Below, in pieces: positions 1 to 23,761 of a DNA stretch of 32,784 nt (position 1 is its first letter; each line of letters begins with the position of its first letter). A program made the translations under genes and the position numbers. The stretch spans positions 1 through 32,784 of the forward strand of contig JANQKU010000144.1 in assembly GCA_028280955.1 (NCBI GenBank), read 5' to 3'. The notes under the pieces were generated by a model. It saw only the letters and a list, made by a program, of their open reading frames with translations, was not told where the DNA came from and did no database searches. The DNA comes from Opitutaceae bacterium. GTDB lineage: Bacteria; Verrucomicrobiota; Verrucomicrobiia; Opitutales; Opitutaceae.

Positions 1-1130
1 CTCATAATAACCGCACGTTTAATCCGGTTCTGTAGCTCCCTCACATTTCCCGGCCAAGCATAACGTTTTATGGCATTTAACGCCTTTTTTTCAAAAGAGA
101 GGCCAGACTTCCTATTTTCACCCGCAAAACTCTGCAATAACGACAGAGCCAGTAAATCAATATCCCCCTCTCGTTCTCGAAGGGGAGGCAGAGCCAACTC
201 CACAACCGCTAAACGATAATACAAATCTTCACGAAAGGTTCCATCGGCCATACCTTTTTGTAAATCCACGTTTGTCGCCGCAATCACCCGGGCCTCCACT
301 GTTATTTCCTCCCTGCCACCAACTCGTTCAATACATTGTTCCTGAAGAAATCGTAAAAGCTTTACTTGAACCGGTAGAGGAATCTCCCCGATTTCATCCA
401 AAAAAAGCGTTCCATTGATAGCCTGTTCTATTCGGCCTTTACGCTGAACATGAGCCCCAGTGAAAGCGCCCTTTTCATGTCCAAAAAGCTCACTTTCCAA
501 AAGGGATTCCGGAATAGCGCTACAATTGATTGCCACAAAAGGCCCCTCTTTACAGGCACTACGATGGTGAATAGCCTTTGCGGTAAGCTCCTTTCCCGTC
601 CCACTTTCCCCAAGAATTAAAACAGAAGCATTTGTCGTAGCAACTTTACGGATTGACTCAAATACTGCCTGCATCGAAAGGCTGGAGCCCAGCATACCTT
701 CAAAAGAGTCTCCCTGTAACTGCTGTTTCATCTCCCGATACTCCCGTTCCAGCAGCGCAACATGGAAACAACGCTTCAACAATTGCTTGAGTTCGTCCAT
801 ATCGACTGGTTTGGATAAAAAATCGTATGCGCCAGCTCCTATTGCCTTCAGAGTATTCTCTTTTTCCCCCTGTCCTGAAACAATAACAATTTTAACCAGA
901 GGATCCATTGTAAGCATCTCCGATAACGTCTCAAGTCCTTCTTCCGGTGAATTGGGATACGGAGGGAGACCCAGATCAAGCAAAACAACTGACGGATGGA
1001 TGGAAGCAAACAATCCCATTGCTTCAGCTCGATCATTGGCTTGAGCAACAGTGTACTGCTCCGCTAAAGCCCAACGCATCTGCGTCCGGACCTCTTTATC
1101 ATCATCGACTATCAGTAAGTGTGGTTTCAT
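1..1130 (-). CDS. prsR: Sigma-54-dependent response regulator, PEP-CTERM-system PrsR-like (3' end outside window)
   Basis: Minus-strand translation from ATG at 1130: MKPHLLIVDDDKEVRTQMRWALAEQ... receiver domain with VVLLDLGLPP, then AAA+ domain with Walker A GESGTGKE, GAFTGA sigma-54 contact motif (GHEKGAFTGAHVQRKGRIEQA) and WPGNVRELQNR. ATGA overlap with the upstream kinase gene. Not in the ORF track because it runs off the window. Confidence 0.92.
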   Translation of the reverse strand, partial: MKPHLLIVDDDKEVRTQMRWALAEQYTVAQANDRAEAMGLFASIHPSVVLLDLGLPPYPNSPEEGLETLSEMLTMDPLVKIVIVSGQGEKENTLKAIGAGAYDFLSKPVDMDELKQLLKRCFHVALLEREYREMKQQLQGDSFEGMLGSSLSMQAVFESIRKVATTNASVLILGESGTGKELTAKAIHHRSACKEGPFVAINCSAIPESLLESELFGHEKGAFTGAHVQRKGRIEQAINGTLFLDEIGEIPLPVQVKLLRFLQEQCIERVGGREEITVEARVIAATNVDLQKGMADGTFREDLYYRLAVVELALPPLREREGDIDLLALSLLQSFAGENRKSGLSFEKKALNAIKRYAWPGNVRELQNRIKRAVIM

Positions 1131-3229
1131 CTCTCAACTCTCGAAACGGGCAAAAGTATTTGAAATGTAGTGCCTAAATTCAACTCACTCTCAACCGTTA
1201 TTCTGCCTCTGTGAGCCTCTACAATCATTTTACTTTGAAACATCCCTATGCCAAGTCCGTTCTTTTTAGTAGTTTTAAACGGACGAAACAACGAATCGTT
1301 AAGGAATTCTTCACTGATTCCACATCCATTATCTGTCACTGTTAGAACCACACACTCTTCGTGTAAATTCGTCGTCACCAAAATCTCACCTCCCTCTGAT
1401 ATCGCTTCTGACGCATTGAGCACAAGATTATCCACAACCTTGAGCATCTGTTCAGAGTCAATCGAGATTTTTGGCAATGATCCCAGTTTGGTTCTTATAA
1501 CGATTCCGACTTGCTTTTCCCATCCAGAAATAGCCTTTTTGATAACTTCGTTAAAATCTGTTTCAACAGGTTGTATCTTAAGTTCATGACGCAACATACC
1601 CAACCGTTCGATAATGTAGTTAATTTTCTTTCCCGCTTGGGAAATTCCTCTTAAAGCGTCTTCACGAAATTCCGGATCATCCCAATGCACTGGAAAATTT
1701 TGTATCATCAAGTTGAGTGTCGAAGCAGCATTCTTCAGATCGTGAACGAAAAAAGCCCCCATCGTTTGAAAAGCTTCCAGCTCTTTAAGCTGCAGATTCT
1801 TTTGAGAAAGCTCAACATTGAGTAAACTGGAAGCGGCGTGGCTACCAACACATTTTAATATATCAAATTCCTGAACAGAAAAAATTTCTCCCCCAACCCG
1901 ATCTCCCAAGACCATCAGTCCAAGAAAGGTTTCCCTTCTGATAAGAGGAATACAGATACGGTTTCCTCCATGAGGAAACTGCCGAGGATTCGCCTCTCTC
2001 AATGCCTTAACCCACTTCTCTTGAGAAACATCCAAATCAATGGGTTCCAGATGCTCCTGAAAATACCGAACTAATTCCGAATCTAATCTATGATCAATAC
2101 GGCTAACGTCGAAAAGGGACGTCGAACCCGCAAGCGTCATACTTTCTTCATTACGATCCACCAACCAGATATTAACGGAAAGCGCTTGAAAGACATCGGC
2201 AATCAATCGAACGAGAGATCGGCACAATTCTGTTCTCTCCAATTGAAAAGACGTCTTTTCAGAGAACTTTAACCAGATCTTACGGTAATCATAAAGAGGT
2301 CTTTTAAAATGGCGACCCACAAAACGCCGCATCTGTAATCGAAAACGATCAGACTGCAATAAAAGGGCCAATAATACCACTGAAACCATTATGACCAAGG
2401 CCTTTAAGGGGAAAGCGACATCACCACCCCAAAAAGCAACGACTTTTGCCAAAACACCTACGATAATCAGATAAACGCCAACCAGTAAAACGGTCAGCGA
2501 ATTGCGAAGAATCTCCTGAGAAGGATAAACCTCTAATTCAAAATGCCCGACTCGGAATAGAGAACGTAAAATCAAAAGAGACGCTATTAAGAGAGCACCC
2601 GATCCAATGATATCCATGGAGGGATCGATGCGGGAAAAGAGCAGCGCCTGACTGCTGGTGTACAAGCGAACCGCAAATAAGACTCCAAGGCCCAAAACCA
2701 TGAATTTGATGCGCCAGCGCATTGTCCCTATAGCTGCCCGAAAAGTACGCTCCAGACTCATCAACACGATGACAGACCCCATCAATAAGGACAAATGAAT
2801 GAGAAAACCCGACCATCCCAAAAGAATTGTCCAAGCCTCACTCGGCAAAACGTGAAAACCCAATACGGCCAGATCATTGTGAAAGAGCAATGCAACCACA
2901 ACCGGCAAAAAGAAGAAACCTGCCAATGGATAACGCCACTTTGCGAGTAAGCCCTGTGCCTCTCCACGAGCATAACTTAAACTGAAAAACAACCATATTC
3001 CTGGAAGAAACGACATCACTATAAGTCGAATTCTTTGCCAATAAAGCACTTCCAAAGACTGATTGGCCATCTCACTAAAGCCAACACAGAGGCTTTCAAC
3101 CATTAATACGACCATTCCAAGAGCAAAAACCCAACGAATAGCCGAATGTCTATTTTCGATAACAACAGCTCCAGCAAGAATGACGCAAAATAGAACACCT
3201 GCGAAAGCAAATAAGACATCAACACTCAT
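1127..3229 (-). CDS. prsK: PEP-CTERM-system histidine kinase PrsK-like (membrane N-terminus, GAF, HATPase)
   Basis: 700 aa; multi-TM N-terminus, GAF-like middle, H-box FFVHDLKNAAS, N-box NLVLNASEAI, G-boxes DNGCGIS and GLGIGMFQSK; adjacent to prsR and near an exosortase. Confidence 0.88.
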   Translation of the reverse strand: MSVDVLFAFAGVLFCVILAGAVVIENRHSAIRWVFALGMVVLMVESLCVGFSEMANQSLEVLYWQRIRLIVMSFLPGIWLFFSLSYARGEAQGLLAKWRYPLAGFFFLPVVVALLFHNDLAVLGFHVLPSEAWTILLGWSGFLIHLSLLMGSVIVLMSLERTFRAAIGTMRWRIKFMVLGLGVLFAVRLYTSSQALLFSRIDPSMDIIGSGALLIASLLILRSLFRVGHFELEVYPSQEILRNSLTVLLVGVYLIIVGVLAKVVAFWGGDVAFPLKALVIMVSVVLLALLLQSDRFRLQMRRFVGRHFKRPLYDYRKIWLKFSEKTSFQLERTELCRSLVRLIADVFQALSVNIWLVDRNEESMTLAGSTSLFDVSRIDHRLDSELVRYFQEHLEPIDLDVSQEKWVKALREANPRQFPHGGNRICIPLIRRETFLGLMVLGDRVGGEIFSVQEFDILKCVGSHAASSLLNVELSQKNLQLKELEAFQTMGAFFVHDLKNAASTLNLMIQNFPVHWDDPEFREDALRGISQAGKKINYIIERLGMLRHELKIQPVETDFNEVIKKAISGWEKQVGIVIRTKLGSLPKISIDSEQMLKVVDNLVLNASEAISEGGEILVTTNLHEECVVLTVTDNGCGISEEFLNDSLFRPFKTTKKNGLGIGMFQSKMIVEAHRGRITVESELNLGTTFQILLPVSRVER

Positions 3230-3312
3230 TTCTTAATTTCTTCAAAACATGAGCAGATGAACGACAAGCGCAATGGCAATATATTTTCACCTCACTTTAC
3301 ATCACTGCCACC

Positions 3313-3347
3313 AAAAAAAGCCGCATTGGAATTTCCATGCGGCTTTC
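3313..3347 (-). terminator. Rho-independent terminator downstream of the VPDSG-CTERM gene
   Basis: On + strand AAAAAAA-GCCGCATTGGAATTTCCATGCGGC: GCCGCAT/ATGCGGC stem (plus GGAA/TTCC with a bulge); on the minus strand the stem is followed by a T7 run. Confidence 0.85.
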
Positions 3348-3368
3348 CTCTATGAAATAGAATTTAGA

Positions 3369-4043
3369 CTAGATCTTCGCAGACCTGTATTTTGTAACGA
3401 ATAAACTCAGTAACAACAAACCTAAACCAAGCATCCAAACAGTTGTGCCACTGTCCGGGACAGCTGTTGGTCCACCTTCATCTATTGAGTTAACTTCAGT
3501 ATCTGGATTTGAACCAGAATCATCTCTACCGCCTGGATCTGGATCACTAGAACTACCTCCATTTGCCGATCGTGTTGGTTTTAAAGAATTCCAGATGCCA
3601 TTATCCTTAGAATGTCTCGCATATCCACCGCGGTATGATCCGGAATTCGATGATGTGTCAGCACTCATTGTTTGACTTGATCGCCCTCCCTGTTGGGTCA
3701 TTCCTCCACCGATAGAAGCAGGTACCATACTGGGAAATAAAGGTTCTGATTCCTCTGAGCTAAAGTCATCTTTGACAGCATTTTTTGTCTGTTGGGTTCG
3801 ATAGGGCAGAGCAGAAGAAGCCGTGTCGTATTGATCAGTCTTACTGTAACCGAAATCATCAAACAAAATACTATTACCGGCCGCAATATCAAAAACTTCT
3901 TCAATCATATCTTCTGAGTCTTCACCAAAGGATACATCTTTTGAAACATAACCAGAATCCCAATAGAGCGAAGCATTGATAACACCCAAACCCAATAGCC
4001 CTAGGAAGATGCCACAAAATAAAAGTCGTTTCTTATTTTTCAT
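3369..4043 (-). CDS. VPDSG-CTERM sorting domain protein, acidic/Ser-rich low-complexity surface protein
   Basis: 224 aa; N-terminal signal/TM segment; C-terminus ...TAVPDSGTTVWMLGLGLLLLSLFVTKYRSAKI = VPDSG motif, hydrophobic helix, basic tail. Confidence 0.9.
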   Translation of the reverse strand: MKNKKRLLFCGIFLGLLGLGVINASLYWDSGYVSKDVSFGEDSEDMIEEVFDIAAGNSILFDDFGYSKTDQYDTASSALPYRTQQTKNAVKDDFSSEESEPLFPSMVPASIGGGMTQQGGRSSQTMSADTSSNSGSYRGGYARHSKDNGIWNSLKPTRSANGGSSSDPDPGGRDDSGSNPDTEVNSIDEGGPTAVPDSGTTVWMLGLGLLLLSLFVTKYRSAKI

Positions 4044-4072
4044 ATGTATTGTTTATTATACGACAACAATTA

Positions 4073-4088
4073 AGCACCCTTCATGCCA
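4073..4088 (-). promoter_or_regulatory. Sigma-54 (-24/-12) promoter for the VPDSG-CTERM gene
   Basis: Minus strand TGGCATGAAGGGTGCT: GG-N10-GC exactly, 30 nt upstream of the ATG at 4043; close to consensus TGGCAC-N5-TTGCA. Confidence 0.75.
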
Positions 4089-4196
4089 GTATCGAAAAAC
4101 AACCTTCATTTATTATATAAATATTTGAATATCAATATTTTAAAAACTTTATGAGTATTTTTTCCTAAGGGTAAAATCAGCCATAAAATAGACTAT

Positions 4197-4229
4197 AAAG
4201 TGTAAACTAGACCGACATTTTTACACTTT
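4197..4229. promoter_or_regulatory. Candidate PrsR enhancer (inverted repeat) upstream of the sigma-54 promoter
   Basis: AAAGTGTAAA (4197-4206) - N13 - TTTACACTTT (4220-4229), perfect 10-bp inverted repeat, about 150 bp upstream of the predicted transcription start. Confidence 0.65.
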
Positions 4230-4425
4230 TCGAAATTCCTTATTCAAGAGCCGATTTGTCTAGTTAAATCGAGATTTCTTCACCACCAAGTAATTGTTCA
4301 AAGTCAAAACTCATTGTATCCCTTCACTTAGCTTTTTTTAGTTTGCTCAATCACACATCAGTATTTTCAGAGCGACCTAGGGTTCCATAAACTATATTTA
4401 TCGACTATCATCATATCCCATATAA

Positions 4426-5385
4426 TCACCTATGACTTCTCATTGAGGATCTACTATGAAACACCTTTCCTTCCGTTGAAGTTTCAGCTCGATTTCGTTC
4501 CGATTTCACGAAAAAAAACAACAATAAGAACAAAGGCACCAGCGACAAAGCAAAAAACACTGGACCACCATTTCTGTGAATTTCAGAATCAATCATCTCT
4601 GGTCCAATTTGCACACACAGTTGGGCAATGACAAAAATCCGCAGGCTGTTTCGTACAATTGCCAACGGAATAATAAACAGAACTAAAATAACCCGTTTCC
4701 AGACGGAATGTAAAAAGAGGTTAGCAGCAACCAGACTGACAATAAATAAAACCAGACTTGAGCGGATTCCACTACATTCCCGCGCTACTTCTAAACTAAT
4801 CCCAGGAAGGTGAAAAACTAAATCATAACGAAGAATTGGTGTCTCGGCTAATTTCAGAAACCAGTAGGAAACATCTGCTGAAGCGTATTGAAAAAAAGTT
4901 TCTATGCCTTCTTTTAAAAAAACAGGAAACGGAACCATACATACCAGAAAAACCAAGGGAAAGGTAAAAGTCTTCAAAGTTTCTCTTCCTAGAAAAAAAC
5001 TCGCACCTGCCAGAAAAAACATAACAAAGGCAAAGATCGTCGCAGAAAGATAATTTTCATGTGTCAAAGAAGACCCACTACCCACTATAACCCAATAGAA
5101 CCCGAGCACAACTAGTCCTGTTAACAACGGGAACAATGCCAGCATACGATTTGGCGATGAAGGAACCGGTAAGTTCTTCCTTTTTAACCAAATCAAATAA
5201 ACACTAACACAAGGGATAAGAAGAATATGAGAGTATAAATCAGTCCCCATTGCTAAGTGAATCAACTGGTATAGCGGCAAACTGAAACTGACAATAAGGC
5301 CCAGGATAAACAGCAAGAAATGCCATGGCATAAGTAAGCCAAACAGTGATCGTGCACTATGAGACCACTCTGAAATAACATTCAT
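4426..5385 (-). CDS. xrtC: Exosortase (XrtC-like, VPDSG-CTERM-associated)
   Basis: Multi-TM protein with exosortase catalytic residues in order: Cys in VARECSGIRSSLVLF, Arg in IVRNSLRIF, His in DSEIHRNGGPVFF. ORF opens at 5436 but the ATG at 5385 (MNVISEW) is preceded by AGGAAGGGG. Confidence 0.88.
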   Translation of the reverse strand: MNVISEWSHSARSLFGLLMPWHFLLFILGLIVSFSLPLYQLIHLAMGTDLYSHILLIPCVSVYLIWLKRKNLPVPSSPNRMLALFPLLTGLVVLGFYWVIVGSGSSLTHENYLSATIFAFVMFFLAGASFFLGRETLKTFTFPLVFLVCMVPFPVFLKEGIETFFQYASADVSYWFLKLAETPILRYDLVFHLPGISLEVARECSGIRSSLVLFIVSLVAANLFLHSVWKRVILVLFIIPLAIVRNSLRIFVIAQLCVQIGPEMIDSEIHRNGGPVFFALSLVPLFLLLFFFVKSERNRAETSTEGKVFHSRSSMRSHR

Positions 5386-6859: not shown

Positions 6860-9800
6860 TCAATCTAGCTTTGCAACTAGGGCTTTCGCCAATTCTTCCA
6901 CAAACGGTTCTACCAGCATAGCATGCGGGTTGAAATTAAATTTAACATCGATGAATTCTCCTCGAGCTAGGTCTTTCCAGCCCATGTTTTTGTCTGTGTA
7001 AAATGAATAATTTCGTTTCGGCCTGAAATTGACGATAACGCCATCATAGGGTCGCGGTTTGTACTTCATCGCTGCCATATGATTGATCTGATGGATACTA
7101 TCATGAATAGACTTCACTCGAGATTTTTTCTTGAACACGTTTGTCATGTTACCAAACAAAAGCGAGAACTCTCCATCCTTCCCCACTTGAATTTTACTTG
7201 AGAGGTATGACGGCCACATACTGAAAGGCACTTTTATGAAATTACCGATATGAAACCATGTTTTTTGCAAAAGAAAACTGACAAGATTTCGTTCCTTCAT
7301 TAGTGAGAAATTGTATGTATCTAACAATGCTAAGAGAGCGACCTCTTGGCCTTCCTTCCGTAATATTTGCGCCATCTCATAAGCAATCGTCCCTCCCAAA
7401 CAATAGCCTCCTAAATGATAAGGACCAGTTGGCTGTATTGATTTGATCTCTTCTACATACTTTCTGGCCATTTCCTCAATGGTTGTCAGAGGCTGTGTTT
7501 TTGTATCTTGGCCTTGAGATTGAAGGCCGTAAAAAGGATAGTTATCACCCATTTTCTGAGAAAGTATCCGGTAAAAGAGGACATTTCCTCCAGCCCCGTG
7601 AACACAGAAAAACCTGGATTTCGAACCTTGAGGTTGAATGGGCACGAGAGAAGACCACTCTTCGAGTCGCTCATCATCTTTTTCCAGCTCGATCGCCAGT
7701 AGCTTAACAGTTCCCGACCTGAAGAGAGTTGCAAGCTGTAGGCGTTTTCCAAATATTTGCTCGATTTTATTGAACAGTGAAACTGCTATGATAGAATGTC
7801 CTCCCAAATCAAAGAAATTATCGTTTCGCCCAACTTGAGAAACTCTTAGAAGAGACTGCATAATGTCAGCGAGTTTCTTCTCCTTCTCTCCCTGGGGGGG
7901 GTGGAAATCTCCATCCGGAATTCGAGTTTCCGTCTGCTCTGGTTCTGGCAACGCTTTTCTATCGACCTTCCCGTTCGGTGTAAGAGGGAGTGTATCCATC
8001 GTAACCAAAGTAGCAGGGACCATGTATTCCGGCAATTTGCTTCGAAGAGCGCCTCTTAGTTCATCTGGATTGAGTTTTGACGAAGTGTCTGCCTGAACGT
8101 AGGCGACCAGACGTTTATCGCCAGGAATATCTTCCCGGGCAATCACAACCGCCTGTTTGATACCAGATTGTTGAGAAAGGACCGTCTCGATTTCTTCGAG
8201 TTCTATGCGAAACCCACGAATTTTAACTTGGAAATCGACACGGCCAAGACACTCAACTATTCCATCAGGTCTGTATTTGGCTAGATCACCTGTACGATAG
8301 ATTTTTTCTCCTTTACGAAAAGGATTGGGAATGAACTTCTCTTCCGTCAATTCCAAACGTTGGAAATATCCTCTAGCCAGTCCGTCTCCGCCTATCATCA
8401 GTTCACCAGGAACACCGATAGGCGTCGGCTGCAGAGTTTGATCGAGAATATAAAGCTGAGTGTTGCCAATAGGTCTTCCAATGTGGATGTCCTCAAAACT
8501 TTCAACCCTGCAACATGTGGACCATACAGTCGTCTCTGTAGGACCGTACATATTCCATAATTCGGAACATCGAAAGAGAAGCTTTTCTGCAAGGTCCGAG
8601 GGCATAGCTTCGCCTCCACAGAGAATTTTCAGATTTTTAGAACCTTGCCATCCATTTTGTATCAACATGCGCCAGGTAGCCGGTGTGGCCTGCATGATTG
8701 TAATGTTGTATTTTTCGATAGCTCTTTGTATCGCTTCAGCATCTATCGCAGTCTCCCGCGGGGCAACGACAACCTTAGCTCCTTTCAATAGCGGCAAATA
8801 TAGCTCAAGAACGGCAATATCAAACGAAAGGGTTGTGACCGCCAATAAGATGTCTCGTTGATTCAATCCAGGCTCTTTTCCCATCGATTCCAGGAAATTA
8901 ACCACAGCTTGATGTTCGATTTGCACCCCTTTAGGCCTTCCTGTCGATCCAGATGTATAGATAACGTAGGCAAGATTGTGTGAACCGGAAGATGGCTCTG
9001 GTCTGGTGGAGCTACTTTTTTCGATGGATTGACTGTCTCTATCTATACAAACGACCTTAGCAGGCATTTCATCGAGTGAATCCAGAAGACTCTGTTGGGT
9101 AACAAGAATGGGAGATTTTGCGTCGCTGAGCACATAGGCGATGCGATCGGCAGGGTAAGCCGGATCAAGCGGCACGTAAGCAGCGCCAGACTTAAGCACA
9201 CCTAACAAAGCCACGAGCATCTCCAAGGAACGTTCAAGACAAATACCAATCAAGGCGTCAGATTGGGCACCCAGCATTTGCAAGTGATTGGCTAAACGAT
9301 TGGCACGTTTATCCAACTCGCGATAAGAGATTTCAACCTCTCCAAAAATAGCTGCTATCGAAGCCGGGGTCTTTGTGACTTGTTCTTCAAAGAGTTGATG
9401 CAAGCAAACCGTTTTATCATATTCGAAATCGGTAGTATTCCAATCATTCAATATCTGTGCGCGCTCAGATGACCCGAGGATGGGCAATTCGGCAATTTTA
9501 TCTTCCGGCCGGGCGATAGCAGCTTGCAGTAGCTGGCGAAAATGAACACCCATGCGTTCGATAGTCTTCCGTTTGAACAAATTAGTTGGGTACTCAATTG
9601 TCAGATTTAGCGTATCGCCTTCGTGGACAGCTAAAAGAGTTAGGTCGAATACAGAAATGGAGTCGGAAGGTGGGAGATGAGTAATCTCAACTGAGGGCAA
9701 ATCAATCGCGAACAGCTCCGGTTGATTCTTATAAGAGAAGAATACTTGAAAAAGTGGATTGAAGTCTGTTGACCGAGAAGGGTTTAAATGTTCGACGAGT

Positions 9801-10945
9801 TTCTCTAGATGGAAGCTTTGATGGCTTAGCCCATTTACAGTTTCCTGACACACCTGGCGCAAAAGATCGCAAAAAGATGCAGAGGGATCTTTCAGGGTCC
9901 GTAGAAGAACCACATTCTCAAAACAACCCATCATAGACTCTGTTTCACTCAAACTTCGGTTAGCTGCAGGAGTGCCAATCGTCAGGTTCCGTTGCCCAGT
10001 ATATCTGTATAATAAAACACTGAATACTGATAAGAGAACCGTATGAACAGAGACATTTTCTCGAATACTGATGTCGAATACTGCTTGGCAAAGCGATTCA
10101 GACATTTCAATTTTTACCGAATCGCCTTCGAATGATGGTCGTTGCGAACGAGAATAATCCGTAGGCAGATTCAACGCCTCGGGTAAATCTTTGAACTTTT
10201 CTTTCCAATAGCCAAAACTCTCTTCGTAAATCTTTGTCCCAGGCTGATCGCGTTCCCATTGAGCGAAATCTGCGTAGTGTAAAGTCAACTCAGGCAACGA
10301 CAGACTTTCACCTCTTAAGTAGGCGCTATATAGCTGTTCGAGTTCGTTAGAGAAAATGCCCATCGAGATATCGTCACCGATAATGCGATGTACATTCACA
10401 CCGAATACATGCTCATCAGATGTAAGTCGGATCAGATGAAAACGGAAAAGTGGACCCGTAGTGAGATCAAAGTTAAATAAGGTTTCACGACTGATGATAG
10501 CATTCATTTCCGCTACGCGTGCTTCATGCGGCAGTTTGCTAAGATCAACAGGATCCAGAACAACGGGTTGTGAATCGTGAATGACTTGAATGGGATCCCG
10601 CCCTTCTTGAACAAATGTCGTGCGTAACGTTTCATGCCGTTCAACAATGACACTCAAGGCATACTCCAAGGCGGGAATATCAAGTGGGCCACTAATGCGC
10701 TTGAACTCCGACATGTTGTAGGCGCCAGTATTCGGAAATAAGTGTTCCAAATACCAAAACTGTTCTTGCGAATGCGAAAGCAATAGCGGACGACTCAAAT
10801 CACGCTTCGGCAAACTTGGGGTATGGCCCTTCTGTTTCTTCCGCTTCATTAGGCTATCTTCTAAAAAGCTGGTTTGGTCTGCCCTGGGCAATATATCACT
10901 GAGCTCATTATCCGTTCGACTTGTGGATGGCTTGGAATCTTCCAT
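6860..10945 (-). CDS. Single-module non-ribosomal peptide synthetase (C-A-PCP-TE)
   Basis: 1361 aa. C domain: LSHSQEQFWYLEHL, RHETLRT, altered HHxxxDG (HRIIGDD). A domain: YTSGSTGRPKG, NMYGPTETTVW, YRTGDL, QVKIRGFRIELEEIE, NGKVDRKALP. PCP: FFDLGGHS. TE: FFCVHGAGG, GYCLGG, LLDTY, NPHAMLV. Confidence 0.95.
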   Translation of the reverse strand: MEDSKPSTSRTDNELSDILPRADQTSFLEDSLMKRKKQKGHTPSLPKRDLSRPLLLSHSQEQFWYLEHLFPNTGAYNMSEFKRISGPLDIPALEYALSVIVERHETLRTTFVQEGRDPIQVIHDSQPVVLDPVDLSKLPHEARVAEMNAIISRETLFNFDLTTGPLFRFHLIRLTSDEHVFGVNVHRIIGDDISMGIFSNELEQLYSAYLRGESLSLPELTLHYADFAQWERDQPGTKIYEESFGYWKEKFKDLPEALNLPTDYSRSQRPSFEGDSVKIEMSESLCQAVFDISIRENVSVHTVLLSVFSVLLYRYTGQRNLTIGTPAANRSLSETESMMGCFENVVLLRTLKDPSASFCDLLRQVCQETVNGLSHQSFHLEKLVEHLNPSRSTDFNPLFQVFFSYKNQPELFAIDLPSVEITHLPPSDSISVFDLTLLAVHEGDTLNLTIEYPTNLFKRKTIERMGVHFRQLLQAAIARPEDKIAELPILGSSERAQILNDWNTTDFEYDKTVCLHQLFEEQVTKTPASIAAIFGEVEISYRELDKRANRLANHLQMLGAQSDALIGICLERSLEMLVALLGVLKSGAAYVPLDPAYPADRIAYVLSDAKSPILVTQQSLLDSLDEMPAKVVCIDRDSQSIEKSSSTRPEPSSGSHNLAYVIYTSGSTGRPKGVQIEHQAVVNFLESMGKEPGLNQRDILLAVTTLSFDIAVLELYLPLLKGAKVVVAPRETAIDAEAIQRAIEKYNITIMQATPATWRMLIQNGWQGSKNLKILCGGEAMPSDLAEKLLFRCSELWNMYGPTETTVWSTCCRVESFEDIHIGRPIGNTQLYILDQTLQPTPIGVPGELMIGGDGLARGYFQRLELTEEKFIPNPFRKGEKIYRTGDLAKYRPDGIVECLGRVDFQVKIRGFRIELEEIETVLSQQSGIKQAVVIAREDIPGDKRLVAYVQADTSSKLNPDELRGALRSKLPEYMVPATLVTMDTLPLTPNGKVDRKALPEPEQTETRIPDGDFHPPQGEKEKKLADIMQSLLRVSQVGRNDNFFDLGGHSIIAVSLFNKIEQIFGKRLQLATLFRSGTVKLLAIELEKDDERLEEWSSLVPIQPQGSKSRFFCVHGAGGNVLFYRILSQKMGDNYPFYGLQSQGQDTKTQPLTTIEEMARKYVEEIKSIQPTGPYHLGGYCLGGTIAYEMAQILRKEGQEVALLALLDTYNFSLMKERNLVSFLLQKTWFHIGNFIKVPFSMWPSYLSSKIQVGKDGEFSLLFGNMTNVFKKKSRVKSIHDSIHQINHMAAMKYKPRPYDGVIVNFRPKRNYSFYTDKNMGWKDLARGEFIDVKFNFNPHAMLVEPFVEELAKALVAKLD

Positions 10946-11275: not shown

Positions 11276-12454
11276 TTATTCATCTCTTTCGATACTTCGC
11301 TTCAGATCGATGATAGGAATACCGTGAATTTGAGATGCTTTTTTAAGGTCACTGTATTCCGCCTTTACTCTGCGCGTTCCTAACGGAGTATGGAATACCT
11401 TTATGCGAATTTTCCCATAGTCTGTAGTCAATATTTCTTCGCTCCGATCGAGGGTTTTGCGTTCTACCGGATAAAAACGGACACCAATTGCCGTTGTATT
11501 TTCCAAGATACAATCACATACGGATTCAAGGTTTACCTGCTTCACTAGAGCGCTAACCTGATATCCTGGGCGACTTTTTTTCATAAGGGCCTGCGTAATG
11601 GTGAAGTCGAGAGCACCTGACTTAAGCAGCTGTTGCTGGAAATTGTCTCCTAGCAGTTCGGGAGAGCAGTCGTCAATATTCGTTTCGACCACAAAGACTG
11701 GCCTTATTTTTCCAATTGAGGTTGAGAGAGTTCCCAGCGAAAGCCTAAGCACATTGGGCGCGACAAAGTCTTTTTTGCCGGGACCGTACGCTGATTTTTC
11801 GATAGCCAGAGGGGGAGATTCAAAAATGGGATTGAGGTAGCGGAGGATAGCAGCTCCGGTTGGAGTGGTTCGTTCTCCCCTTTCTTCCCCTTTAAAGCAA
11901 GGCATTCCCTCTAGCAACTTGGCCGTTGCAGGAGCCGGAATGGGGAGTTGCCCATGTTGCGTACTAACCATCCCATAGCCGAGACATATCGGGTCCGAAT
12001 AGGTCACACCGATGTCGAGCTGGTCGATGAGAATCGCACTGCCTACAATGTCAACAATCGAATCTACTCCGCTGATTTCGTGAAAGTGGATCTTCTCGAT
12101 ATGAATATCGTGTACCTGCGATTCTGCTTCACCAATGAGCAGAAATATCTCTTTGGCAATAGATTTAGCCGTTTTCGGGATATCAGCCTTGTCAATAATG
12201 GCGATGATGTCACTTAAGTGACGATGATGTCCATGATCTTGATGCATGTTGCTTGCAGTAAGATCAACCACGTTAATGTGTTTGCACACAATGCCGTTTT
12301 TTTCGACTTGAGCGATCTCAATTCTGGTATCGTGAAGGCTTAGTTTCTTCGGGAGCTCAACAATATCGCTATAGGCATCAAGCAGCCCACAAAGCGAACC
12401 CAGGAACATATCGCCGGAAAGACCTGAAAAAGGTTCTATATAGAGCGTATTCAT
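11276..12454 (-). CDS. larC: Nickel-pincer cofactor biosynthesis nickel insertase LarC
   Basis: 392 aa; MNTLYIEPFSGLSGDMFLGSLCGLLD, His-rich MHQDHGHHRHLSDI, HFHEISGVDSIVDIVGSA, GERTTPTGAAILRYL. Confidence 0.93.
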   Translation of the reverse strand: MNTLYIEPFSGLSGDMFLGSLCGLLDAYSDIVELPKKLSLHDTRIEIAQVEKNGIVCKHINVVDLTASNMHQDHGHHRHLSDIIAIIDKADIPKTAKSIAKEIFLLIGEAESQVHDIHIEKIHFHEISGVDSIVDIVGSAILIDQLDIGVTYSDPICLGYGMVSTQHGQLPIPAPATAKLLEGMPCFKGEERGERTTPTGAAILRYLNPIFESPPLAIEKSAYGPGKKDFVAPNVLRLSLGTLSTSIGKIRPVFVVETNIDDCSPELLGDNFQQQLLKSGALDFTITQALMKKSRPGYQVSALVKQVNLESVCDCILENTTAIGVRFYPVERKTLDRSEEILTTDYGKIRIKVFHTPLGTRRVKAEYSDLKKASQIHGIPIIDLKRSIERDE

Positions 12455-12506
12455 TTAGACGTATGATTCAGTTGCTCTCACTCCCAAGAGAAAACCCTAT
12501 ATTGCT

Positions 12507-13160
12507 TCAAGTATCGATTTGCATAAGAATTCGGTAGGCAGCTATAGCTGCGCCGTAACCATTGTCGATATTCATTACAGTAATTCCATTTGCGCAGCTG
12601 GAAAGCATCGCATTGAGAGCAGCAATTCCTTCTGCGGCGACTCCGTAGCCAACACTCGTGGGAACTGCGATAATTGGTTGCGAGAGGAGACCTCCCATAA
12701 CGCTGGGCAATGCGCCCTCAAATCCAGCTACGACGATAAGCACCTTCAGCATTTTGAGATCTTCCAGACGATCAAAAAGACGGTGAATTCCAGCAACCCC
12801 TACATCGTTCACTCGTTTGGCTGGAATTTTGAGAAAATTAAGCGTGTAATAGGCTTCGTTGACCACGTGTAAATCTGAACTACCAGCGCTGACAATGCCA
12901 ACACGAGCGTCCATTTCTTCAAGTTTGTTAGCCCGAAGAACAAAAGACTGTGAAACTACGTCGTATTCAGCGTTCGGGAAATGCCGTCGTAGAGATTCCG
13001 CTTTTTCCACCTGAACACGAGTGGCTAACGCATTGCGTCCCGTAGATTGATACTCACCAAGAATGCTCTTCAGCAAGTCAACCGATTTTGTGGCTCCATA
13101 AACAACTTCAGGAAAGCCCAGTCTTTCCTCTCTATTTGTATCCAAATTATAATTATCCAT
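12507..13160 (-). CDS. larB: Nickel-pincer cofactor biosynthesis carboxylase/hydrolase LarB (AIR carboxylase-like)
   Basis: VGIVSAGSSDLHVVNEA, VNDVGVAGIHRL, VVAGFEGALPSVMGGL, PIIAVPTSVGYG. ORF opens at 13196; ATG at 13160 overlaps the larE stop by only 8 nt and is preferred. Confidence 0.93.
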   Translation of the reverse strand: MDNYNLDTNREERLGFPEVVYGATKSVDLLKSILGEYQSTGRNALATRVQVEKAESLRRHFPNAEYDVVSQSFVLRANKLEEMDARVGIVSAGSSDLHVVNEAYYTLNFLKIPAKRVNDVGVAGIHRLFDRLEDLKMLKVLIVVAGFEGALPSVMGGLLSQPIIAVPTSVGYGVAAEGIAALNAMLSSCANGITVMNIDNGYGAAIAAYRILMQIDT

Positions 13161-13962
13161 GATTTGGGATGGCACGATTAAGCTTACCTGACACAAGACC
13201 TTCTTCGTCGATTTGAACCTTCTTAAACCCCAGTCTTTTTAAGGTGATTTCCACTTGCGGAAAGACTGAACGTAAATGATCGATCGCGTCAATCGGGGTT
13301 TCAATTTTTGCAGTTTCTCCGAAATGACGAACCCGAACTATATCAAGACCAAAATGGTTCAAAGCAATCTCGGCGGCTTCGACCTGGTTCAGTTTTCTCT
13401 CAGTGACGTTCTGCCCGTACGGTATGCGCGAACTTAGGCAAGGGCTTGCAGGCTTGTTCCAAACGGGTAACTTGAAATGCTTAGCGAGTGCTCTGACTTC
13501 GGGTTTCCCTAGGCCACAATCAGCTAACGGTGAGAGGACCGCTTGTTCATTCGCAGCTTGGAGTCCAGGTCGAAGATCACTGTGATCGTCCTGGTTAGTG
13601 CCGTTCAAGAGGACAAACCGTGGGTATTCGGCTTGGTGAACCTTACGAGTCATTCGGTAAAGTGTGTCTTTGCAGTAGTAACACCGGTTGAAAGGGTTAC
13701 GGGCATAATCGGGGTTTGTTAATTCTCCTGTTTCGATGATGCGTAAAGTGATCTGGAACTCTTTGCAAAATTTTCGAGCTATCTCCAAATCTGCGCGTTT
13801 TAAACTGGGAGAATCAGCGATGATGCCAATGGCATTCTCACCCAGAAAACGTTTGGACAAATAGAGAACCAAAGCGGAATCAACGCCTCCAGAAAAAGTG
13901 GTTAGACTGCCTTCGAGAGGCTCGAACCAGCTTTCCAGCCGTTTTAGAAGAGAAGGTATCAT
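13153..13962 (-). CDS. larE: ATP-dependent sulfur transferase LarE (PP-loop)
   Basis: PP-loop FSGGVDSALVLYL; RNPFNRCYYCKDTLY; PASPCLSSRIPYGQNVT; directly upstream of larB-larC. Confidence 0.93.
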   Translation of the reverse strand: MIPSLLKRLESWFEPLEGSLTTFSGGVDSALVLYLSKRFLGENAIGIIADSPSLKRADLEIARKFCKEFQITLRIIETGELTNPDYARNPFNRCYYCKDTLYRMTRKVHQAEYPRFVLLNGTNQDDHSDLRPGLQAANEQAVLSPLADCGLGKPEVRALAKHFKLPVWNKPASPCLSSRIPYGQNVTERKLNQVEAAEIALNHFGLDIVRVRHFGETAKIETPIDAIDHLRSVFPQVEITLKRLGFKKVQIDEEGLVSGKLNRAIPNHG

Positions 13963-20109: not shown

Positions 20110-21093
20110 TTATCTCTCTTCTCCTAAATGTTTATTTGGTAACAAATAGTTCTGAACATAATCTTCGATCGCCTCTTCAAGAGACGTGAATCTCCTGCGG
20201 TATCCAACAGAACGGAGCTTGGACATGTCTGCTTGCGTATGATATTGATATTGGTTTCGCAGTTTTTCCGGCATATCAATATAAGAGATCTGCTCCGGTT
20301 TTTTCAGTGCTACGAACATGGCACGAGCAAGATCATTCCATGTGCGCGCTACACCAGTACCAACGTTGAAGACACCGTTAGCAATGGTATTCTCCAAAAG
20401 CCACAAGCTTACATCGACAGCATCCTTAACATAGATGAAGTCACGTTCTTGCCCACCATCAGGATAGGATGGATCATATGATTTGAATAAGGTAAAAGGG
20501 AGATCTTCACTGATCTCGGGAAATTTTTTGTTCACCACACTACGCATGACACCTTTGTGCCATTCATTCGGACCAAACACGTTGAAATAACGGACTCCAG
20601 CTGTGACTTCTAACAGCCCTTCATCACGTGCCCAAATATCTACGAGTAGTTTGGATTTTCCATAAGGATTAAGAGGAGCAAATTGATCGAATAATTCAGG
20701 ATCATCGCTAAAGCCCAATGCTCCATCACCATAGGTCGCAGCACTACTTGCATAGATACACCGAACATTATTTCTGAAGCACCAAAGGATCAGTTCCTTC
20801 GAATAATTCACATTATTGTCCTGAAGATAATCCCAATTGTCTTCGGTTGTATCAGAACAAGCTCCAAGATGAAGCACACCACTTACATCAAATTGATCAT
20901 AAAATCCCTGACGAAGTCGTAAACGAAATTCATCAACTCCAATGGTCTCGCGAAATCGCAACGATCTGAGATTTCGACCTTTCTGCTCGTGATCAATATT
21001 GTCGACCACAAGAATGTCGTCGCAGCCTCGCGTATTTAAAGCAGCAATGATAGCAGATCCAATAAAACCGGCTCCTCCAGTAACGATAATCAT
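20110..21093 (-). CDS. hldD: ADP-L-glycero-D-manno-heptose 6-epimerase
   Basis: 327 aa SDR: MIIVTGGAGFIGSAIIAALN, ASSAATYG, NPYGKSKLLVD, RYFNVFGPNEWHKG. Confidence 0.93.
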   Translation of the reverse strand: MIIVTGGAGFIGSAIIAALNTRGCDDILVVDNIDHEQKGRNLRSLRFRETIGVDEFRLRLRQGFYDQFDVSGVLHLGACSDTTEDNWDYLQDNNVNYSKELILWCFRNNVRCIYASSAATYGDGALGFSDDPELFDQFAPLNPYGKSKLLVDIWARDEGLLEVTAGVRYFNVFGPNEWHKGVMRSVVNKKFPEISEDLPFTLFKSYDPSYPDGGQERDFIYVKDAVDVSLWLLENTIANGVFNVGTGVARTWNDLARAMFVALKKPEQISYIDMPEKLRNQYQYHTQADMSKLRSVGYRRRFTSLEEAIEDYVQNYLLPNKHLGEER

Positions 21094-21103
21094 GGTAATA
21101 ATT

Positions 21104-22159
21104 TCATTTTGTAGAACGGATATTTTTTACAATCTCGCTCGTGGAAAAATTGTTTCGTTTTACGATTGTATGGCCTTTTATACCGAATTTTTGCATTGTT
21201 GCCCATTCGACCCAAGTTGTTGGCTCACCATAGTCGGGCCCATTGACTTGAACGTGTGGTTTCACACTTTCGAGCAGTGACAACATAGGTTCTTCTGAAT
21301 AGGATCCTGGCATTGTGACCACGTAGTCTACGCAGATGAGAGCCGCCAGCATCGCGCAACGGGCCTCTTCAGGTATAAGCGGTCGACTTGGACCTTTTGC
21401 TGCGGTCACTGCGTTGTCTGCATTGACGCCGACAAATAGAACGTCTCCTTGTTTTCGAGCCTCTTCGAGCTGATCTAGATGGCCTGCATGAATCAAGTCA
21501 AAGGAACCATTAGTAGTGACGAGTCGCCGACCCATTCCTCGAAGCTCCGCAGCAATTTCGGCAGCTTCTGCTGATGTAATTATTTTTTCGTTACGCCAAT
21601 TATAACGATCGAATTTCGATTCTCCATTTGCCATTTTCTCTGAAAATTCTAATAGCGATTCAATAATCATGTCAGGCTGAATCTTCAAAGATTCCGGTTG
21701 CCAATAAGGGCTTCGGATAAGCGCAGTTTGGGCCCCAATATTTTTACCGAAACCAATGTCCGACTCTTTGTCGCCAATAACCCAGCTTCGCTTGTAGTCA
21801 ATAGGACCAATAATTTCTTCAGCTTTTCGAGCCAACCCAATCTCGGGTTTTCGGCATGCACAGCCCGCTTCTCGGTGATGAGGACAATAAACAATTGTAT
21901 CCAGATAAACTCCAGTCTTTTGTAGTAGGCTTTTCATGTACCCATGGAGAATGTCCACATCATCCTTTGAAAATCGACCGTCGGCGATACCGGCCTGGTT
22001 CGAAACGACGACAAGCGACCATCCCTCTTTTTGTAGTGCTCTTAGGGCCTCTGGAGCTCGTTGGGTAAACTCCCAGTCGGAAATGCGGTGCACGTAACCG
22101 TGGTCCAAATTGATCGTGCCATCACGATCGAGAAAAACGACTCGTTTGGGTGCAGCCAT
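21104..22159 (-). CDS. Fusion: heptose-1,7-bisphosphate 7-phosphatase (GmhB) + heptose-1-phosphate nucleotidyltransferase (HldC / HldE C-terminal domain)
   Basis: 351 aa; N-terminal HAD-IIIA VVFLDRDGTIN...VVSNQAGIADG...CPHHREAGCACRKP; C-terminal TTNGSFDLIHAGHLDQLEEARKQGDVLFVGVNAD. Confidence 0.92.
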   Translation of the reverse strand: MAAPKRVVFLDRDGTINLDHGYVHRISDWEFTQRAPEALRALQKEGWSLVVVSNQAGIADGRFSKDDVDILHGYMKSLLQKTGVYLDTIVYCPHHREAGCACRKPEIGLARKAEEIIGPIDYKRSWVIGDKESDIGFGKNIGAQTALIRSPYWQPESLKIQPDMIIESLLEFSEKMANGESKFDRYNWRNEKIITSAEAAEIAAELRGMGRRLVTTNGSFDLIHAGHLDQLEEARKQGDVLFVGVNADNAVTAAKGPSRPLIPEEARCAMLAALICVDYVVTMPGSYSEEPMLSLLESVKPHVQVNGPDYGEPTTWVEWATMQKFGIKGHTIVKRNNFSTSEIVKNIRSTK

Positions 22160-22171
22160 GTGGGATTAAAG

Positions 22172-23182
22172 CTAGCTAAGAAAGATTTGCAAGAGCTCTT
22201 CTTGAGTCAGGGCGACAGCGCCGATTTTACTTGCAATTACCGCCCCTGCTCCATTGCCAATATGGGCTACCTCCGTATCGTTCGCCCCAGAAAGTTTTGC
22301 CAGCACGATAGCAACCGCGGCGGTATCTCCGCAGCCTGAAGTGTCGGCCACTTCCACGCGATGGACCTGTGGTACGTGGACTCCTTCCGTTTCTGCTGTT
22401 TGCACGTAAATACCGTCCTCACTGAGCGTCAGAAACACATTAGTTTGAAACGTATCATTGAGTTTGGTCGCAAGTTCTTCTTTGGGTACCCCCCCCTGCA
22501 GATGTTGATTTAGGCCGAGATATTCATGGGCTTCCTTGCGGTTTGGCGAAATATAAGAAACTCCTTTGAAAAGGCTGATATGAGTCGGCTTTACGTCAGC
22601 CATCACCGGGATATTGTGCTCCTTGCTAGCAGTCAGAACTGCGGCAGCCACACCTTCCGTCAACATGCCCTTTGAGTAGTCTGAAACAAGAATAGCATCG
22701 ATGGATTTTGCTTCCGCGAGGATTGAGGAAATGACCTTTTGCTCAATTTCAGGAGAGATATCGTGAGTTTCCTCAAAGTCGACTCGCAACATTTGCTGGC
22801 CACCCACCATATAGCGCTTCTTTTCTACCGTCGCGCGACTGGTATCCTTTATAAGAATAGGCTCATAACCTTCAGCAAGCGCTGCTTCTTCGAGTTCCTC
22901 GGATGCTCGATCGGAACCTACTACACTAATCAATTTGGTGGTGGCGCCCAGAGCGGAAGCGTTTTTGGCAGTATTACCCGCGCCTCCTGTTGCCCTGTAT
23001 TCTTCTTTTGCGTGGAGGATTGGAACCGGAGCCTCTGGATTGATGCGTTCGACCTTGCCGATAACGTATCGATCGATCATTACATCGCCAACGACAAGAA
23101 TGCACTTACTACGAAATTGACCAATAATTTCGATGGCCCTGCTCGAGCTTACGCCCTCCGGTTGAGAATTGTTTTCATTCAT
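22172..23182 (-). CDS. hldA: D-glycero-beta-D-manno-heptose-7-phosphate kinase (stand-alone kinase domain)
   Basis: 336 aa PfkB/ribokinase family; KCILVVGDVMIDRYVIGKVERINPEAPVPIL, GGAGNTAKNASALGA, VADTSGCGDTAAVAIVLA. Confidence 0.92.
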   Translation of the reverse strand: MNENNSQPEGVSSSRAIEIIGQFRSKCILVVGDVMIDRYVIGKVERINPEAPVPILHAKEEYRATGGAGNTAKNASALGATTKLISVVGSDRASEELEEAALAEGYEPILIKDTSRATVEKKRYMVGGQQMLRVDFEETHDISPEIEQKVISSILAEAKSIDAILVSDYSKGMLTEGVAAAVLTASKEHNIPVMADVKPTHISLFKGVSYISPNRKEAHEYLGLNQHLQGGVPKEELATKLNDTFQTNVFLTLSEDGIYVQTAETEGVHVPQVHRVEVADTSGCGDTAAVAIVLAKLSGANDTEVAHIGNGAGAVIASKIGAVALTQEELLQIFLS

Positions 23183-23194
23183 GGCTTTAAACGT

Positions 23195-23761
23195 TTATCG
23201 CGGCTCCAAAGTTTCGCAAATCAAGTGTATGGCATGAAGGTGAAGTTCCTGTACTATTGCTGCTTTGTCACTTGGACTAGTAACGGCAAAATCTGCCATT
23301 TCCCGAAACGGGCCTTTCATACCCGTGAAGGCGATAATCGTCATACCGCATTTACGGGCCGTTTCGGCGGCAAGCAAAATATTTTCACTGGTACCAGAAG
23401 TCGTGAGACCAATAAAAATATCCCCTGGCTGGCCAAGGGCTTCGACCTGGCGCGCAAATACGTTTTCGTAGCCATAATCGTTTCCGATGCATGTCAGAAC
23501 CATGCTGTCAGCGGTTAGGGCAACGACGGGATAGGCCTTTCTGTTCAATCGGTATCGTCCGACGAGCTCATCTGAAAAATGTTGGGCTTCTGCCGCAGAT
23601 CCACCATTCCCGGCAATTAGGACCTTTTTATGCTCGGCGAATGTTGAGGAGAGCTGATTGGAGACCATTTCCACTTGCACGTGAAATTCTGCGATGTTGT
23701 CGCAAGCTCTGACCAATTCCTGAGTGTGTGAAAGAAAGAGGGATTTCGCTTGTGAATGCAT
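23195..23761 (-). CDS. gmhA: Sedoheptulose-7-phosphate isomerase
   Basis: 188 aa SIS domain; LIAGNGGSAAEAQHFSDELVGRY, GDIFIGLTTSGTSENILLAAETA, QELHLHAIHLICETLE. Confidence 0.93.
   Translation of the reverse strand: MHSQAKSLFLSHTQELVRACDNIAEFHVQVEMVSNQLSSTFAEHKKVLIAGNGGSAAEAQHFSDELVGRYRLNRKAYPVVALTADSMVLTCIGNDYGYENVFARQVEALGQPGDIFIGLTTSGTSENILLAAETARKCGMTIIAFTGMKGPFREMADFAVTSPSDKAAIVQELHLHAIHLICETLEPR

Follow-up and report, generated by a model that had tools for sequence, protein, structure and literature searches.

Positions 4073 to 4229 of the window (the whole 32,784-nt stretch of Opitutaceae DNA analyzed here) very probably comprise a sigma-54 promoter and an upstream activator site for the predicted regulator PrsR, which together would switch on a gene encoding a VPDSG-CTERM protein. 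Both elements, their arrangement, their conservation and their association with VPDSG-CTERM genes were observed in this genome and in its relatives. The finding is the known PrsK-PrsR-RpoN circuit on the XrtC/VPDSG branch outside the Proteobacteria, and the XrtC/VPDSG-CTERM system, a second and distantly related sorting system, is probably under the same PrsK-PrsR regulators as the proteobacterial exosortase systems. In our literature search, no mention of VPDSG-CTERM and no treatment of VPDSG-CTERM regulation were found; the same box and promoter, placed before the substrates of a different exosortase, provide a first regulatory hypothesis for these proteins.

Promoter, inverted repeat and gene context

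The region lies between xrtC (5436-4426), which encodes a VPDSG-CTERM-specific exosortase (TIGR04151, 302.6 bits, cut-off 300; PF09721), and the predicted target gene (4043-3369), followed by prsK (1127-3229) and prsR (1-1130), all on the minus strand. The target gene encodes a 224-aa VPDSG-CTERM protein, recognized by TIGR03778 (VPDSG_CTERM; 23.6 bits, cut-off 22) and PF18205 (25.0 bits, cut-off 25). PrsK is a sensor histidine kinase (TIGR02916, 379.4 bits, cut-off 300). The product of prsR is an NtrC-type response regulator which matches TIGR02915 over model positions 1-371 (526 bits, cut-off 502.6) and carries the GAFTGA motif, as had been read from its translation in the preliminary description; the contig stops short of the 3' end of the gene, truncating the protein at about residue 377.

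The promoter, TGGCATGAAGGGTGCT (4073-4088, minus strand), has its -24 GG at 4087-4086 and its -12 GC at 4075-4074, with 10 nt between them, and is close to TGGCACG-N4-TTGCW. The placement of a GG-N10-GC element 30 nt before the start codon (ATG at 4043) in the preliminary description was thus correct, and the element obtained the top sigma-54 score of the window (31.5 out of 32.5, the next match scoring 29). The accompanying statement that only one weak GG-N10-GC match exists elsewhere was inaccurate: the window contains further, weaker sigma-54-like matches, none of them as high-scoring and none with a box upstream. Only 2 weak matches were obtained in a sigma-70 promoter scan of positions 3250-4500, versus 4.2 expected, and RpoN is encoded in the genome (PF04552, 205 bits, contig C211). 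Transcription of the target gene would be expected to start at about 4062, giving a predicted leader of only some 19 nt in which no Shine-Dalgarno sequence is evident, a feature that we count against the proposed reading.

The exact 10-bp inverted repeat with a 13-nt spacer noted earlier at about 150 bp upstream was also found, at 4197-4229, i.e. 154-186 bp 5' of the start codon (AAAGTGTAAA at 4197-4206 and TTTACACTTT at 4220-4229 on the forward strand). Read on the gene strand, the promoter-distal arm is AAAGTGTAAA (4220-4229) and the promoter-proximal arm is TTTACACTTT (4197-4206). The 32.8 kb contain several perfect repeats whose arms measure 9-10 bp, and the probability of finding such a 10-bp repeat by chance in this 382-bp intergenic region is 0.023. 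Taken alone, the repeat is mildly unusual and is weak evidence; together with its context, it is far beyond chance.

Recurrence of the elements upstream of VPDSG-CTERM genes

Genome-wide, TIGR03778 detected three VPDSG-CTERM genes: that of the window and two small ones carried by contig C207. The pattern GTGTAAA-N(8-24)-TTTACAC occurs four times in the 3.68-Mb draft genome and, with a gap of 13 or 14 nt, it precedes all three of these genes, whose sigma-54 elements (TGGCATGAAGGGTGCT, TGGTATACAAATTGCT and TGGCATACGAATTGCT) follow the repeat at distances of 111, 106 and 108 bp, respectively. A sulfatase-like ORF extends with its 3' end into the fourth copy (C224:12327, N24), which was considered a chance occurrence. 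With the same box and promoter before three VPDSG genes, the detected regulon would therefore consist of three substrates of the neighboring XrtC.

Across 200 genomes of the family, GTGTAAA-N12-15-TTTACAC was found in six places. Five are upstream of VPDSG genes, and the remaining one lies on the xrtC contig of the sister species G032, at the point where that contig breaks off. Contig C409 of G032 carries prsK, prsR and the orthologue of the window's VPDSG gene, arranged as in the window. Within the diverged intergenic region, the box, the distal arm (with one mismatch) and the promoter, conserved as TGGCATGAAGAGTGCT, stand out as conserved islands. Further copies of the repeat were found in G109, before a small VPDSG gene and 78 bp upstream of TGGCACGTATATTGCT, and in G139, before a VPDGG gene and accompanied by TTGCACGCCATCTGCT. 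A combined pattern of box and promoter, TGTMRG-N5-TTTACA-N(84-114)-TGGCRY-N6-TGC, gave 11 matches in 252 family genomes, versus one for the reversed-pattern control. Ten of these 11 matches precede genes of the VPDSG, IPDSG, VPDTG or PDA type of CTERM, and the eleventh is located before a subtilase-like ORF running off the locus. The enrichment before other VPDSG-CTERM genes anticipated in the preliminary description is therefore borne out in the genome (3/3) and, for exact matches, in the family (10/11), as is the enrichment in related genomes.

Two observations were made alongside this survey. On G032 contig C120 (locus L309, 53-3349), prsT (TIGR02917, 407 bits, cut-off 312) directly follows xrtC; in the window it is the VPDSG gene that follows xrtC, and no prsT was seen there. 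In G453, which belongs to another family of the same phylum, box and sigma-54 promoter stand before a partial frame encoding a PrsK-like N-terminal region (TIGR02916, 123 bits), and also before a PilZ gene whose downstream neighbor is a response regulator-PilZ gene; these sites may reflect autoregulation and a link to c-di-GMP.

An unbiased de novo EM search covered, for 37 VPDSG-CTERM genes, the 160 bp that precede the sigma-54 site. It returned a 17-nt motif, TGTCGGaATncTTTACA (also given as gTGTCGGaATncTTTACA), in 84% of the regions, with a log-likelihood of 181 versus 65.5 in the best of eight shuffled sets; 29 of the 37 genes scored above the 99th percentile of shuffled sequence, a partly circular count, as the matrix was derived from the same 37 genes. 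The best match of the window (score 18.1) is TGTCGGTCTAGTTTACA at 4201-4217 on the minus strand, a PEP-CTERM box and predicted PrsR site whose TTTACA half is overlapped by the proximal repeat arm. Exact TGTMRGN5TTTACA sites number four in the genome, three of which precede VPDSG genes; the fourth (C147:18008), within a coding frame, was attributed to chance.

Strong sigma-54 sites were found between -130 and -25 in 29 of 71 VPDSG genes versus 1 of 71 in the control interval. A weighted score was needed for this count, since an exact sigma-54 regular expression had recovered few promoters at the first 30 VPDSG loci. A strong sigma-54 site is lacking from over half of the VPDSG genes sampled, so that other control exists, a further point against the proposed reading; many VPDSG genes also have no box.

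In the degenerate copies found before other VPDSG genes, the distal arm is often absent and TGTCGG-N5-TTTACA is kept. Moreover, the spacing within the 17-mer is fixed while the gap between the repeat arms varies from 13 to 15 nt, which argues for the 17-mer as the binding unit. Judged by sequence conservation, the conserved element is thus the 17-mer TGTCGG-N5-TTTACA (4217-4201, minus strand) overlapping the gene-proximal arm. The distal arm is an extra half-site outside it, conserved in the genus and also present in a few relatives: it accompanies all boxes seen in the genus (with one mismatch in the G032 orthologue) and occurs singly in G109, G139 and G088, and no sign of it was found in the 121 proteobacterial boxes among the matches listed. 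The proposal that the inverted repeat is the PrsR box of the VPDSG branch accordingly stands as regards an arrangement of box and sigma-54 promoter common to VPDSG-CTERM genes; as regards the element itself it does not, as the 17-mer is what is conserved, not the repeat.

Relation to the proteobacterial PEP-CTERM box

The box is not a new one particular to the VPDSG branch: its length and its TTTACA end match motif 1 of Proteobacteria. According to Haft et al. (2006; PMC1569441), motif 1 is a 17-nt element ending in TTTACA before proteobacterial PEP-CTERM genes, separated from a sigma-54 motif 2 by 62.8 ± 10.6 nt (range 32-92). It is assigned to PrsR by phylogenetic profile and is limited to Proteobacteria among the species of that study. 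RpoN dependence has been shown for pepA of Aquincola tertiaricarbonis RN12 (PMC9850573).

We scanned about 85,000 species genomes with the pattern TGTCGG-N5-TTTACA-N(48-78)-TGGCAY-N6-TGCW. At least 119 stretches matched, nearly all proteobacterial by record title, and the center of the box was A/T-rich. Among the matches listed, where many loci are short, a PEP-CTERM-like ORF was present within 2.5 kb at 67 of 121 sites; on the divergent side the figure was 17 of 105. The consensus TGTCGG-N5-TTTACA is common to these proteobacterial matches and to the box described here which, as far as sequence can tell, is the proteobacterial PEP-CTERM box.

The two systems share a 17-nt box with a TTTACA end followed by a sigma-54 promoter, the position of this pair before single exosortase-substrate genes (PMC1569441), and the proximity of PrsK and PrsR, joined in the sister species by PrsT. 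They differ in their targets, which are here VPDSG-CTERM proteins of XrtC and there PEP-CTERM proteins of XrtA, and in the extra half-site of the window's genus. Moreover, the box is found here outside the Proteobacteria, to which the 2006 motif was confined, and the spacer is longer, mostly 87-132 bp in VPDSG genes versus a mean of 62.8 and a maximum of 92 (PMC1569441). The pepA promoter likewise belongs to an exosortase-substrate gene with a predicted enhancer upstream; there, however, RpoN-dependent expression was measured, in a proteobacterium and for a PEP-CTERM system, whereas our description comes from sequence (PMC9850573).

The spacer of the window, at 112 bp, falls outside the 32-92 nt range reported by Haft et al. 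(PMC1569441). Among the matches listed, the proteobacterial spacer measured 63.5 ± 6.9 (pattern range 48-78), and nearly all values clustered at 51-53, 60-66 and 73-76, the intervals between being almost empty (Rayleigh statistic 75 for a period of 11-11.5). The spacers of VPDSG genes group at 87-91, 96-102, 107-112 and 122-127, with a Rayleigh statistic of 7.6 at 11 (jitter P = 0.014). The stepping of about 11 bp is thus very strong in Proteobacteria and moderate in VPDSG genes, and we treated the longer spacer, with its similar helical stepping, as a variant rather than a different element. Looping contact of a bound activator with sigma-54 polymerase would require the helical face to stay constant, and the stepped spacing makes this geometry directly testable. 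No mention of helical phasing occurs in the consulted part of the 2006 description of the box (PMC1569441).

The sites of enhancer-binding proteins of the NtrC/AtoC/ZraR type are 17-bp dyads with a 5-bp center, bound by a dimer with a Fis-type HTH and located upstream of a -24/-12 promoter. The box has the same 17-bp dyad and 5-bp center but differs in half-site sequence, and its halves are unequal (TGTCGG versus TGTAAA).

The predicted regulator and competing explanations

The C-terminal HTH missing from the window PrsR is encoded at positions 2-214 of contig C207 (VTLEDLELPSKS...LGISRPTFYELMEKLGIPKSVK*). Because no second PrsR above cut-off was found in the genome, C207 most likely abuts the window, which would place the two other VPDSG-CTERM genes just downstream of prsR; all three VPDSG genes would then flank prsKR. 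That the DNA-binding domain of the regulator is attached through this presumed join was counted against the proposed reading. Over the 200 family genomes, PrsR (TIGR02915 above cut-off) was present in 32 and a strong XrtC match in 31, with both in 29 (Fisher P = 3e-29), and the recognition helix of PrsR is similar between the family and Proteobacteria (LGVSRPTLYDLM versus LGISRPTFYELM). Within VPDSG-positive genomes, the set included only six VPDSG genes from PrsR-negative genomes, too few to show a gene-level association of box and PrsR. Box-bearing VPDSG genes also occur in two family genomes, G152 and G025, in which neither a PrsR above cut-off nor a strong XrtC match was found; the assemblies may be incomplete, PrsR may have diverged, or another activator may act.

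These two genomes argue for binding of the box by an NtrC-family activator other than PrsR, together with the several related regulators per genome that score below cut-off (up to 428 bits). We regard this as distinctly improbable, given that PrsR co-occurs with XrtC and is encoded in the same locus, that its HTH is conserved, and that the same box accompanies PrsR in Proteobacteria (PMC1569441). It is also unlikely that the whole inverted repeat, with both 10-bp arms, is the operator and acts as one unit for PrsR or another dimeric regulator. Both arms are indeed exact at the three sites of the genome, nearly exact in the G032 orthologue and again present in G109 and G139; however, their distance takes values of N13, N14 and N15, whereas the TGT..G-N5-TTTACA spacing is constant, and the distal arm is missing from most VPDSG boxes and from the proteobacterial boxes among the matches listed.

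The position of the repeat downstream of xrtC and on the same strand would suit a role as that gene's transcription terminator or as an RNA hairpin, an explanation we consider very remote: the stem is AT-rich and has no T-run, no terminator-like site was found in 3250-4500, and in C207, G109 and G139 the repeat stands before VPDSG genes that do not directly follow an xrtC. As for repeat and GG-N10-GC meeting by chance, the modest improbability of a single 10-bp repeat in an AT-rich intergenic region (P = 0.023) leaves room for it, but the comparative data, with 3/3 genes, conservation in the sister species, de novo recovery and genome-wide rarity, refute it and reduce its probability to practically nil.

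Under the preferred reading, that of a sigma-54 promoter with an upstream PrsR site, PrsK would phosphorylate and thereby activate PrsR. A dimer of the phosphorylated regulator would occupy the imperfect 17-bp palindrome TGTCGG-N5-TTTACA (4217-4201), loop across the roughly 112 AT-rich bp up to the promoter and drive open-complex formation by sigma-54 RNA polymerase at 4088-4073, the outcome being that the gene of the VPDSG-CTERM surface protein is turned on. The outer repeat arm, as an extra half-site, may strengthen binding in the window's genus. PrsR binding, RpoN dependence and activation rather than repression are inferred.

More broadly, PrsK, PrsR and sigma-54 may form a portable module that crossed phyla with exosortase loci, passing from PEP-CTERM/XrtA to VPDSG-CTERM/XrtC systems. 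In this scenario, to which we give slightly less than even credence, the DNA code and the phasing would have been kept, the site would have moved some 3-5 turns further away, and, in the window's genus, the additional half-site would alter PrsR oligomerization. The rule of box plus promoter supplies a sequence criterion for finding regulon members, and comparing the shared circuit across two unrelated groups offers a way to ask which surface-matrix signal PrsK detects.

Other genes were also observed in the window. A 1361-aa NRPS-like protein (adenylation domain, TIGR01733) is encoded at 6860-10945, adjoining a nucleotide-sugar dehydrogenase gene in the exosortase/EPS cluster, and larC and larE (nickel-pincer cofactor) were found at 11276-13962 within the polysaccharide cluster. 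Finally, a complete-looking ADP-heptose pathway, consisting of gmhA, a heptose kinase, a GmhB-adenylyltransferase fusion and an epimerase, is present at 20110-23761 within the exosortase locus.
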